This document shows, piece by piece, positions 32,392 through 39,224 of a stretch of DNA of 64,000 bases (its first letter is position 1; each line of letters starts with the position of its first letter). Below the pieces are notes generated by a model. The model was not told where the DNA came from. It made no database searches and worked only from the letters and a program-made list of their open reading frames with translations. A program made the position numbers and the translations under genes. The DNA is from Mycoplasmopsis synoviae ATCC 25204 (lineage in GTDB: Bacteria > Bacillota_I > Bacilli_A > Mycoplasmatales > Metamycoplasmataceae). The stretch is taken from NCBI RefSeq assembly GCF_000969765.1, contig NZ_CP011096.1:496001-560000 (forward strand), given 5' to 3'.

Positions 32392-32535
32392 GATAAATTA
32401 ATTGAAATTTTTAATTTAAACTAATTTATTTTAATTATTTGTTGTTTATATTTTAATAGTCTTTAATCTAAAAAAATAAATTTTGATAAAATAAACATAT
32501 GTTGCCACATATATTTATAGCTTATATATATATAT

Positions 32536-33732
<1,197 letters not shown>

Positions 33733-33802
33733 CTTTAATATTTTTTTTCAAGAAAAAGCTAATAGCCTTTTTATTCCTTTAAATAATTTTTTATTTAACA
33801 AG

Positions 33803-33824
33803 CAGACTAAAAGTCTGTTTTTTT
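33803..33824 (+). terminator. Terminator-like hairpin just upstream of the methyltransferase
   Basis: CAGACT/AGTCTG stem followed by seven Ts, ending only 6 nt before the GTG start. It could end read-through from the island's left side or act as an attenuator. Confidence 0.65.
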
Positions 33825-33830
33825 GCTTAA

Positions 33831-35081
33831 GTGAAAAAAATTAGAATATTTGAAGCTTTTTCTGGTATTGGCGCACAGAACAAAAGTTCAAAAATTGTAA
33901 ATTTAAAAAACAATGACGATAGATTCGAAGTTGTTGCTACTTGTGATTGGGATGTTTATGCAACTATTTCCTATAGTTTTATGCATCACAATTTAACTTT
34001 AAATAAAGCTAAAAAAATTCTTAATAAATTCAAATTAAATAATGAAGAACAAATTAATATTTTTTTATCAAAGTACACATTGTCTACAAATTCCAAATAT
34101 CCAATATTACAAATAAAAAGAAAATCATTAAATTTAAAAATCTTATTATCTGCATCTATATTAATAAGCAAAAATTATTGTGATATTAAAAAAGTTGATG
34201 GTCAAATATTAGATGAAAATAAAATAGACTTGCTTACATATTCATTTCCATGCCAGGGACTTAGCGTCGCAAATATGGGAAGAGATAAAGGGATAAGTGC
34301 AATCGATAGTTCAAGTCATTTGGTGTGGGAAATATCAAGAATTTTAAAAAAAACAAATAATAAACCAAAATATTTATTATTGGAAAATGTAAAAAATTTA
34401 GTAAATAAATATAAGTTAGAATATGAATCTTGAAAAAAGGAATTATCAAAATTAGGATATAAAACATATACTGCTTTACTTAATGCAAGAGATCATGGAT
34501 CATTACAAAAAAGAGAAAGAGTTTTCGCAATTAGTGTTTTAAAAAAAACAAAAGTGCCTTTTAAAAATGACGTTGATTTTAAAAAATATATAAATAATAT
34601 AGGTCAAAAAAGAATTTTAGAAAACAATAAAAAAGAATTTTTCGCAATTTTTGATTTAAAAAACAAAAAATACTTAGAAGCCGATAAATGTCTAATTAAA
34701 GATACGCCATCAAGAAGAAAAATAATAGAGAAATGCAAAAATATTAGTGATATTAATAAATCTATAAAAAATAATTTTGTGATAAATACTTTAACAACAA
34801 AACAAGACAGGATACCAAATGGTGGTTATATAGAATTTGCAAATTCAAAACAAAATTACTTAAATTATAGATTTATAACACCCAGGGAAGCATATAAAAT
34901 AATGGGTTTTACTGATAAAGATTTTGACAAATTAAAAATACCAATAGAAGAAGGTATTCTAAATAATAATGTTTTGTGAAGACAAGCTGGCAATTCAATT
35001 GACGTTAACGTATTAGAAAGTGTTTTTCAAACAATATACGAAATTGATAATATGAATGGAGAAAAAAATGAAAAAAAATAA
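33831..35081 (+). CDS. DNA (cytosine-5-)-methyltransferase
   Basis: The 416-residue enzyme has all the key C5-methyltransferase motifs in order. Motif I is FEAFSGIGAQ (residues 6-15), binding S-adenosylmethionine. Motif IV YSFPCQGLS carries the catalytic Cys. Motif VI is LLENVKN, motif VIII QKRERVFAIS, and motif X GNSIDVNVL. The variable target-recognition region lies about 250-340. The recognition sequence cannot be told. The GTG start follows a stop codon in frame and is fixed by motif I; no ribosome-binding site is seen. It overlaps the DUF262/DUF1524 gene by 14 bp. Two of four Trp codons are TGG, unlike core genes. Confidence 0.93.
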
Positions 35082-37995
35082 AGCCTTTTTAGATGAATAT
35101 TTTGGAATATGAAAAATTGGAACAAGTATATCAAATTATATAGATAAGTCAATTATAAATTGATTTAAATGCAAAAATTTTCTTGATAAATTTTTGGAAG
35201 ATAAAAAGCAAAAATTCTATTTTGATAAAAATACAAATAAATTTAAAAATCTTTTTGATGCAAATGATACAAGTGAAGAAAATTATTTGTTTTTTTATGA
35301 CAATGGAAATTCAGAAGTTAGTGATACAGTTTTTAAACAAATATTATATGTTCTTGATTATTTGGAATTTATAAATTATTCTTTTGATCCATCATATATT
35401 GAATTATCATATAATTTTCGTGATTTTTTTGAAAAAAATAACAATACAGAAAATTTAGAAAAATTAATTTATCAATATGCTTCATATTCATTTTTTAAAA
35501 TTTCTAATGAAATAATAAAAAATTTAAAAAAATATAAAGATTGCTATCAAAATTCTAATGAAAATTGTGAAGATATCAAAAAGAAATTAAGAGAACAAAA
35601 AGAAAAATTAATTACTTCAATTTGATATTCTTTCTTAGAAATTAATGATCATATAAAAACTGATTATAGCGTATTTTTTGATCTAAAAAATTTTGATCTA
35701 AAAAATAAAAATAAGTTAGTTAAAAATTACAAAAATTTTATTAAAAAATGTTCTGAAAATAATGAAAAATTTAATGATGAATTGCTAGTAGACATATTTG
35801 AAAAACTTAAAGAAATATATGATAAAGATTTATATATCAAAATAAAAATTAAGGATTATGTTTTATTAAATGAAAACATAAATGAAGAAAATATTTATAA
35901 ATTAAATATTGAAAATTATAATATTGAACAAAAAAAAGAAGCGGAAAAAGAAGATATAAATCAATTTAAATCAAAAACTTTTAATTTATATAATTTTATT
36001 AATGAATATTTATTAAATTCTCGAAATAATAAATGGTCATTCATAATTCCTTCGTATCAAAGGAATTATGTTTGGGATAAATATAATTTAGAAACATTAT
36101 TATCTAATATTAACGAAATAACAATATCTGAAAAAACTTATTCACATTTTATTGGCTCTTTATTTTTTACAAATAATGAAGAAACTATGGAATTTAATAT
36201 TGTTGATGGACAGCAGAGAATCACTTCATTAATATTAATATTGTTTGCAATATATAACATTTTTTTTAACAACATAAAATCTAATAAAGAATTAAAAATT
36301 GAAAAAAACCTATTAAATCTATTTAATAAAAACGCTAATTCTAATAAAGATGAAAATTCAAATTATATAATTTCAAAATTTCCTGATATTAAAAATAGTG
36401 AATCCTTAAAATATTTATATTCTCTATTAAATGGTCAAGATTTAGAAGAAAAAAAGACATTACCATTAATATTTGAAAATTATAAATTTATAATTCAATA
36501 CTTATATAAAATATTAAGCGATAATAATAAAATAGATAAAAATAAATTAGAAAAATTTACTGAAAAATTGTACAAATATATTGAATTTAGTGTAATTAAC
36601 ACTAAACAAAAAAATCAAGATTTTAAAATTTTTAGTTATATAAATTCTACTGGAAAAAAATTAAATGTTTTAGAAATAGTTAGAGCTGACATTTTTGGTT
36701 TATCAGAAGAATCTGATTCTCAAAATACAAAAACTAATATTGATAATTACAATAAATATTTTGTTAAAAATATAGAAAAAAACAACATAAAAATTTTAGA
36801 ATTTATTTATTATTTTCATGCTATAGAAATAAAAGCAAACGATAATTTCAAATTTGAATTTTCAAGTAAGGAAAATAGAGAATATGATTTCTTCAAAAAT
36901 TATTTCTATGAATACAAAAAAGAGATAAAACTTAATGAAAAAATAAAGATATTAGTTCAACATTTATTATTTTATATTGCAATAACAAAAATAGGTTCTA
37001 CAAATAAAAATAAAAAAGATTTTGAAATTTGAAAGACACCAATTGAAGAAATAATTAAAGATAATCCTGAAAATTTAAATATAAATTCATATTTTTTAAA
37101 TAATGTTAAAAATATTCTTCCTAAAATTTATATTTATATAAATTTATATAACGAAAAAACAACAATGACCACATTAATTTACGCTATATTAAATAAAAAT
37201 GAATTATGAAAAAGTGAAAAAGAGTTAAGCGATAACGATCTTAATAAAGAAATTAAAAAATTTCATAAATTTTTACTTGAAATTCAAAAATTTAATTTTG
37301 TATGAAAAATTATATATTTTGAAGGGCAATCTATTAGAAAAAATATTGAAAAAATAGCAATTGATATAATAAATCAAGAAATTAAAGATGAAAAACAATT
37401 ATTTAAGGAACTTTTAAAAATTCTGGGATTAACTAACAACGATGAATGAATAAATCATTCTAAAAGAAAAATTGAAGAATACTTTCTAAATGAGAAATTA
37501 AACGATAATAAAACTTCTAAAAATTTATTGATAGTAATTGATTATTATCTTAGAAATGAAAAAAGCATGGAATTAAATAATTCAGATTTTTTAGAAGAAA
37601 TGGTTAAATCTTATTTTAAAATGACTTTGGAGCACTTATTATCACAGGATTTAATAAAAGAAACAAAAAACGAAAAATTAGAAAAAATTTGTTATCAGAT
37701 TGGAAACCATTTTATTTTCACTCAAGGAAAAAATTCTGAATTAAAAAATAAACATATTAATGAAAAAATTAAAAAAATTAAAAAAATTATTAATGAAAAT
37801 AAAAAAACAATTTCAATAGGCAAAGATGTTAACAAAATAGAATTAGAAAATATAAAAAATGAATCTGAAAAAATTGGTAAGAATTGAATTGAAGACCCTG
37901 AGAAAATTAATAAAATGGAAGAAATCTTTGAAACAAGAACAAAAATTTTGTCTGATTATTTATTGGAAATTTTTGATTTTAAAAATAAAAAATAA
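35068..37995 (+). CDS. DUF262/DUF1524 (GmrSD-type) putative DNA-targeting nuclease
   Basis: The 975-residue protein has three parts. Residues 1-290 are a helical region I do not recognise. A DUF262 domain starts near 300, with the hallmarks IIPSYQRNYVWDK (about residue 325) and NIVDGQQRIT (D380-R384), which in GmrS-type proteins bind and hydrolyse NTP. The C terminus has a DUF1524 His-Me-finger pattern: TLEHLLSQ (E855-H856) and IGNHFIF (N880). GmrSD, BrxU and SspE relatives restrict modified phage DNA. Here the partner is a cytosine methyltransferase whose gene overlaps by 14 bp, so the pair may be a restriction-modification module. Trp is TGG twice and TGA eight times. Confidence 0.83.
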
Positions 37996-39224
37996 CAAGG
38001 AATTTTATTACAAAAATATATTAAATGGAATTTAGTTAAATATTTTAATTCAATTTCAATATCGCTAATTGGTTCTGAAGCTTTTAAATTAGCTTCTTCT
38101 TTGTATATTTTTAAAATAACAGGTAGTTTTTGGTTAGTTACTATTTTATATTTGTTAATACAATTACCTTCTATTATTATTTATATTTTTTCCAATAAAT
38201 TAATAAAAATTTTAAAAGATAAAAATGCGCATGTATTATGTGATATATCAAGCGCTATATTTTTAGGTATTGTTTTATGGAATTTCTTTTTGATATCTTC
38301 AAGAAGAATTATTTTCTGTTGTTTTAATTACACTTTCCACAATACTTGAAACTATTCATGCTTATCGTTTTATACATCTAAAAAATGTTTTATATTATAT
38401 AACTGGTAATTATGATAATTTAAAAAAATTCAACATAGCTAATTCCATAGCTTTATCTGTTGGCTTTGTACTTTCTCCTATTTTTTCTTTTTATTTATAT
38501 AACTATTTGCAGTTTTATTGAATGATTGCTTTTACATAGCTACTTATTTAATATCAGGTTTTTTGTATTGAAGTTTAAAAACCTCAAAAGAAGCCGTTAT
38601 TTTTGTAAATGAAAATCAAAATAATGAAAAAACGCAAATAAATAAAATTTATGGTTAAATTTTTGTTTTATCTTTTTCTATTTTAATCGGAATTCTTTTA
38701 TATCCAAGACAAAGTGGTTTAATTCAGTTTTTTGAATACATAAAAGATTTTAAATATGATCAATGATCATTTTGGTTTTCTTTAAGTATCTCAATTAGCG
38801 GTTTTATTGCTGGTATTTTATTAATTTTTATTAATCAATATAGTAAATCTAGGTTTATTAATTGCAATTATTATACTTGTTGGAATTTCTTGATTAATCG
38901 TTAATAAGGTTACAAAAGATAAAAAAAATAATTTTTAGTTATTATTTTGCAATAAATATAATTCAACAATTTTTCTTTAATTTAAGCCTTCCTTATTTTT
39001 AGTCTAAATCTTATAAAATATTTGACAAAAATACATTTCATAAACAAAATGAAATATCATTAGTAATTAGAATTATTTTTTTCAAGTGGTTTTATTTTAG
39101 TATTAACAGCTTTAAATAATAGTTTTAATTATTATTACTCTTATGCTTTATATTCTGGACTTATTTTGTTATTAGGTATTTTAATAATTTTTAGTTATTT
39201 TAAAATAAATAAAAAAATAAAAAC
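37996..39224 (+). pseudogene. Broken MFS-type transporter
   Basis: A transporter coding region lies directly behind the nuclease gene but is disrupted. There is no ATG in the first frame; an AAGGA site sits just after the nuclease stop. The first readable part (SISISLIGSEAFKLASSLYI, then GSFWLVTILYLLIQLPSII) matches the start of MFS efflux proteins of the MefA type. Frameshifts near 38300 and stops near 38537, 38657 and further on interrupt it. Later fragments (IANSIALSVGFVLSPIFSFY) still show the central MFS pattern. Trp is TGG three times in the first part, as in the two upstream genes. It ends against the second IS relic. Confidence 0.65.

Follow-up and report, generated by a model that had tools for sequence, protein, structure and literature searches.

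Related systems

Enzymes combining the DUF262 and DUF1524 domains that have been characterized so far all act on or sense modified DNA, and a current review describes them as either modification-dependent or SspE-type (PMC12707154). GmrSD and BrxU act on modified cytosines (PMC12707154), and DndI and SspE sense host phosphorothioation (PMC11662687, PMC12707154). In M. hominis, DCM5, a short atypical methyltransferase (MTase) without motif I that is listed as solitary, has been noted together with a long neighbour, "down DCM5" (979 aa, DUF1524), without further meaning being given to the pair; the family, domain and switch treated below are not described there (PMC10305163). For control by repeats, the pil1 locus of S. 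gallolyticus is the proven case, in which the length of a leader, set by a repeat, decides whether the downstream terminator is read through (PMC3894217).

The locus of Mycoplasmopsis synoviae ATCC 25204 studied here, in which a C5-cytosine MTase gene overlaps a gene for a DUF262/DUF1524 protein, resembles each of these systems in part. It shares with GmrSD and BrxU both domains and the catalytic motifs, as well as a fold match to BrxU, but adds a constant overlapping C5 MTase, an N-terminal domain termed IGT below, and probable phase-variable control. SspE and DndI are its closest solved folds, have the same domain pair and work beside a DNA-modification system; the partner of the mollicute nuclease is, however, a 5mC methyltransferase instead of Ssp or Dnd proteins, and its N-terminal domain is new. 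DCM5 and its neighbour (PMC10305163), in which a gene of MTase type precedes one for a long DUF1524 protein, are similar in arrangement to seven of the mollicute loci described below. With pil1 the locus shares a repeat within a leader ORF, a terminator and a frame that would decide read-through, whereas the repeat is GCAGA in pil1 (PMC3894217) and (TA)n before a putative restriction-modification operon in mollicutes. No earlier description of the family, the modular nuclease or the switch was found. A GmrSD-type system protected by an MTase would be new, because those listed in the review belong to the two classes named above (PMC12707154).

Gene organization of the M. synoviae locus

The locus was analyzed in a window of 64,000 nucleotides from the M. 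synoviae genome, a single contig of 846 kb using genetic code table 4. Reading with table 11 was rejected since it breaks both the MTase and the nuclease gene; table 4 (TGA = Trp) is therefore required, and with it both genes are unbroken, sharing 14 bp, in agreement with the coordinates and lengths given in an earlier note on this DNA (Table 1). As that note had proposed, the module is unclassified: Pfam, PADLOC and NCBIfam give no system name to the C5-MTase/GmrSD-type pair. The leader, (TA)n tract, terminator and IS30 insertion upstream of the MTase were absent from the note. Within the window, the neighbourhood consists of IS30, the MTase and MFS fragments, and no phosphorothioation genes of the ssp/dnd type were found beside the nuclease. 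The region 3' of the nuclease (38000–38700) carries an MFS-like membrane-transporter gene broken over several frames, probably a pseudogene.

Table 1. Features of the M. synoviae locus (positions in the window)
Feature	Position	Strand	Remarks
-10-like TAAAAT	32487–32492	+	6 bp before leader ATG; direct reading
Leader ORF, 5' half	32499–32535	+	M-L-P-H-I-F-I-A-(YI)n, cut by IS30
IS30-family element	32536–33695	-	IRs 32536–32561 and 33670–33695; transposase 32573–33595; inside (TA)n tract
(TA)16 slippage tract of leader	33696–33728	+	
Leader, 3' half	33729–33844	+	open in one of three (TA) phases to TAG overlapping MTase start (+14)
Terminator-like hairpin	33803–33824	+	CAGACT-aaa-AGTCTG + T7, directly 5' of MTase start; direct reading
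C5-cytosine DNA methyltransferase	33831–35081	+	416 aa, GTG start, PF00145 4e-45
GmrSD-family nuclease	35068–37995	+	975 aa; IGT + DUF262 + helical region + DUF1524
IGT domain	35068–35970	+	approx. residues 1–300; W15-K-I-G-T19 ... S-x-T-x-x-Q91; proposed recognition/coupling module
DUF262/GmrSD_N NTPase-like domain	36010–36696	+	residues 315–543; PF03235 1e-29; YQRNYVW, VDGQQR
DUF1524 His-Me-finger nuclease core	37585–37857	+	alignment conservation; PF07510 on relatives; model confidence approx. 80
DUF1524 residue codons	H856 37633–37635; N880 37705–37707; N889 37732–37734	+	

Methyltransferase and nuclease

The MTase proved to be complete, as had been claimed from the first reading, with FEAFSGIGAQ, PCQGLS, ENVKNL, QKRERVF and AGNSI all found. 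Its closest solved structure is M.MpeI (5e-37), and the match to M.MpeI and M.SssI, mollicute CpG methyltransferases described as orphan enzymes, extends over the full length, including the stretch inserted between motif I and motif IV. Identity to them is, however, roughly 30%, and the recognition region differs in the alignment (TLTTKQDRIPN versus TLTASGANSRIK), so that CpG specificity is not to be assumed. Word avoidance in 464 kb of the M. synoviae genome was not decisive for the target motif (CpG o/e 0.76; GTAC 0.50). Other words strongly avoided in this sample were GGATCC (0.14), TCCGGA (0.29), GAGCTC (0.43) and CGCG (0.60), which, like GTAC, are perhaps footprints of other restriction systems.

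The hallmarks of DUF262 and DUF1524 pointed out in the earlier note were retained on proper alignment. Among 24 nuclease sequences, P328, Q331, R332, Y334, W336, D380-GQQR-384, N526, N880 and N889 were invariant and H856 was nearly so. In Pfam searches, PF07510 (DUF1524) fell below significance on the M. synoviae nuclease itself and was significant on full relatives (8.6e-18 and 3.5e-13). The AlphaFold model was good in the DUF262 and DUF1524 parts only, the IGT part being of low confidence with too few homologues; Foldseek matched the model to DndI (2e-10), SspE (2e-8) and also BrxU. Identity of the nuclease to its relatives is approximately 25%, versus approximately 50% for the MTase; judged by these values, the nuclease is diverging much faster than the MTase. 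Fast divergence is usual for restriction enzymes.

Distribution of the module in mollicutes

A single-sequence search of genome contigs for relatives gave no match, and a profile search of the contigs returned mostly generic DUF262 proteins. A separate profile search, of 320 genomes of the order, gave DUF262-type matches in 125, with several dozen full-length relatives. In about 36 mollicute genomes from four families, the gene for an intact C5 MTase with FxGIGxQ immediately precedes that for an intact nuclease of the M. synoviae architecture, 850–1060 aa long; the two genes usually overlap or lie a few bases apart. Absence of conserved pairing, named in the earlier note as grounds for refutation, was thus not what was found, and adjacency kept in dozens of genomes indicates that the M. 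synoviae pair is more than a chance association. Recurrence of the MTase-IGT-nuclease module in mollicutes is practically certain. As in Type II systems, MTase and restriction nuclease are encoded together, with an intact fused pair in 36 genomes; the conserved overlapping MTase also sets the module apart from GmrSD, for which lack of a cognate methyltransferase is a defining trait. A C5 MTase of M.MpeI/M.SssI-like architecture and an overlapping nuclease of predicted GmrSD fold are hereby shown to be conserved as a unit. The M. synoviae MTase is 52–57% identical to those of five sister modules and 38% identical to that of a more distant one (first six loci). In NCBI annotation, the members of such a pair are called "dcm" and "DUF262 domain-containing protein".

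Six loci (L137, L152, L213, L204, L208 and L214) had an intact MTase with a broken or missing nuclease, and among the fetched loci, every intact full-length nuclease was accompanied by an MTase-type gene. This pattern of loss (6 MTase-only versus 0 nuclease-only), although small in numbers, agrees with a nuclease that would be harmful, or serve no purpose, in the absence of the MTase. At L153 and L241, the nuclease was intact and the MTase gene was broken by a (GA) or (TC) tract.

At seven loci (L021, L140, L142, L146, L148, L157 and L166), a short DCM5-like gene replaces the MTase. Tracts of (GA)n or (CT)n lie inside the MTase or DCM5-type gene at L153 (1919–1942), L021, L140, L142, L146, L148, L173, L241 and L243 and shift its reading frame in several assemblies; the short DCM5-like ORFs apparently represent phase-off versions.

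Several loci had unusual arrangements. L138 (3121–10886) carries nuclease, MTase and nuclease in tandem with a separate (TA)n leader for each unit, and L156 (5843–7078) has a 411-aa membrane-like ORF between MTase and nuclease. In one genome (G110), a duplicated region is present in two copies (L204 and L205), with the MTase intact in one and broken in the other and two small unknown genes in place of the nuclease.

N-terminal IGT domain

The N-terminal region of approximately 290 residues, unrecognised at first reading, forms a conserved domain of its own, which is elsewhere encoded by a separate gene or attached to other nucleases, as would be expected of a part for recognition or coupling. 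It was named IGT here from W-x-IGT, the full signature being W-x-IGT...S-x-ST-x-RQ. In approximately 19 genomes, the N-terminal 200 residues or so form a gene of their own, on one side or the other of the DUF262/DUF1524 gene; in other genomes, the same MTase is followed by a protein of approximately 400 aa, in which IGT is fused to HNH_2 or NOV_C. Profile comparison by hhalign gave 97.4% for fused versus separate IGT and likewise for separate versus HNH type, 93.7% for fused versus HNH type and 84% for separate versus NOV_C type, with no significant match between fused and NOV_C-type profiles. On the MTase tree, which was read without L173 because it is off frame, fused and split forms interchange at least 7–9 times. 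The profiles show IGT to be, at the level of sequence, a movable domain that two further nuclease types, likewise encoded after these MTases, also possess.

IGT is the domain retained beside the MTase when the nuclease is exchanged, which makes it the leading candidate for recognizing the target or for coupling MTase and nuclease. We infer that its S-x-ST-x-RQ..L..FG-I part may resemble a winged-helix recognition element. A PF09208 (MspI) match on one IGT protein (E 0.006) was below the cut-off and was dropped.

Outside the order, relatives of the MTase have other partners and no IGT; we therefore make no claim beyond mollicutes. In other Bacilli (L357–L366), they adjoin different large proteins that are not IGT/DUF262, read from sequence as an AIPR-like protein of approximately 700 aa in several and a GHKL-ATPase-like protein in two. 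In the viral contigs searched, remote MTases alone were matched.

Repeat tract, leader and terminator

Of 77 loci, 59 carried a hypermutable repeat at the MTase, versus 12 tracts elsewhere in 546 kb; the other 18 loci had no detected repeat. The commonest form is (TA)n within a short leader ORF, with a terminator after the ORF. At nearly every fused locus, a (TA)8–16 tract lies 30–160 bp 5' of the MTase; 28 of 44 loci had a (TA) tract within 200 bp upstream, versus 2 tracts elsewhere in 415 kb, and in M. synoviae, one tract of at least 8 TA units was present in 400 kb of the genome outside the window. Five close genomes with flanks 95–100% identical had from 10 to 16 TA units. Other lineages have A15–A18 upstream, or (GA)n/(CT)n or G9–G11 inside the MTase gene.

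A short ORF starts from an ATG 5' of the tract and enters the repeat as (Tyr-Ile)n. TATAAT was found within 40 bp before this ATG in 14 of 21 relatives (0.8 expected), and an intrinsic terminator lay between tract and MTase at 18 of the 21 loci (combined P 3e-15 versus shuffles) and was absent from three leaders; these loci are relatives, and the M. synoviae hairpin is additional to them. In one of three phases, the leader ORF reaches -36 to +25 of the MTase start, often overlapping the MTase. Such an open phase was present at 21 of 21 loci, with 16.9 expected from shuffles (joint P approximately 0.006); being weak alone, the open frame was rejected as proof, and the case for a switch rests on the position of the tract, the terminators and the promoter. 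As in pil1, the repeat is placed in a leader ORF behind a promoter, and the first gene is preceded by a terminator in most relatives and by a terminator-like hairpin in M. synoviae. Phase-variable control by slippage is likely, and attenuation at the leader as its mechanism in the (TA) group is a little less so.

Proposed mechanism and alternatives

On the evidence from sequences and models, we propose, with a probability of about 0.6, that the module is a phase-variable restriction-modification system of mollicutes with MTase-protected restriction, an IGT-guided nuclease and a (TA)n leader switch. The MTase would methylate a short cytosine motif and so protect it, and the nuclease would use NTP and the guidance of IGT to cut DNA without that mark. 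Slippage in (TA)n would decide whether the ribosome on the leader translates past the terminator (ON) or halts upstream of it (OFF). MTase and nuclease would switch together, and the lethal state of nuclease without methylase would thereby be avoided. Protection by the MTase, taken as a component of its own, is favoured to a similar, modest extent. Points that speak against the proposal are the action of all characterized DUF262/DUF1524 enzymes on modified DNA, or their sensing of it (PMC12707154), the weak signal of the open leader phase, the leaders lacking a terminator, the loci with no detected repeat, the low confidence of the IGT model and the seven loci with a DCM5-like gene. A wider reading, in which IGT, as a small recognition domain, couples the conserved C5 MTase to interchangeable nucleases (NTP-dependent GmrSD-type, HNH and NOV_C) in a mollicute-wide restriction-modification class switched by a (TA)n leader-terminator attenuator, is tentative, with chances slightly below even. 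If the proposal is true, the GmrSD fold, so far one of modification-dependent defence, enters the field of methylase-protected restriction, recognition may reside in the movable IGT domain, and it is explained how minimal genomes switch a dangerous nuclease and a protective methylase together. "Orphan" mollicute cytosine methylases would become testable as halves of switchable restriction systems, with a bearing on gene transfer and transformation in mycoplasmas.

The nuclease could instead act in the manner of SspE or DndI, being activated by host methylcytosine or by the MTase and nicking unmarked foreign DNA, in which case the MTase would license rather than protect. Both closest folds combine DUF262 and DUF1524, the two genes overlap, and the intact nucleases behind frameshifted MTases at L153 and L241 would be safe if the nuclease needs the MTase. 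However, HNH_2 and NOV_C nucleases, for which we know of no mark-sensing role, stand in the equivalent position, following IGT and these MTases, and the M. synoviae module has no ssp/dnd-type modification genes beside it; we regard such sensing as unlikely. Still more improbable is a type IV nuclease directed against phage DNA with modified cytosines, which would ignore the mark of an adjoining epigenetic MTase and be paired with it through co-mobility. It has precedent in GmrSD and BrxU (PMC12707154), the latter being among the fold matches, and such MTases also stand alone or with other partners; against it are the adjacency and overlap kept across four families, the lack of an intact nuclease without MTase among the fetched loci, and the tie of IGT to these MTases even where the nuclease domain changes. 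The conservation and constancy of the MTase, which exceed those of any other part of the module, make the "self-protected type IV" option of the earlier note less likely.

For the switch alone, (TA)n might be a promoter-spacing or AT-rich promoter element instead of part of a coding leader with attenuation. Relatives of family f6 have A15–A18 upstream, in several of them between -35-like and -10-like boxes, an arrangement comparable to that of vlp-type promoters, and the open phase of the leader exceeds chance only weakly. This explanation is nevertheless doubtful, since TATAAT stands upstream of a leader ATG that itself precedes the tract, terminators lie downstream of it, and the order TATAAT, ATG, tract and terminator is not explicable by promoter spacing.

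State of the M. synoviae copy

To the left of IS30 are the -10-like TAAAAT, the ATG and MLPHIFIAYIYI..., and to the right are (TA)16, the leader tail and the hairpin CAGACTaaaAGTCTG-T7. The element places 1160 bp between the leader start with its promoter and the operon, and because of this separation the M. synoviae copy is probably OFF. Judged from this arrangement, silencing by IS30 is reasonably likely; alternatively, IS30 itself may drive the operon.

IS30 is present in four near-identical copies, the others being at positions 37797, 179887 and 341165 of the genome contig. These three copies are flanked by duplications of approximately 26–30 bp that are hairpin-like or AT-palindromic, suggesting that the element favours terminators and inverted repeats as targets.
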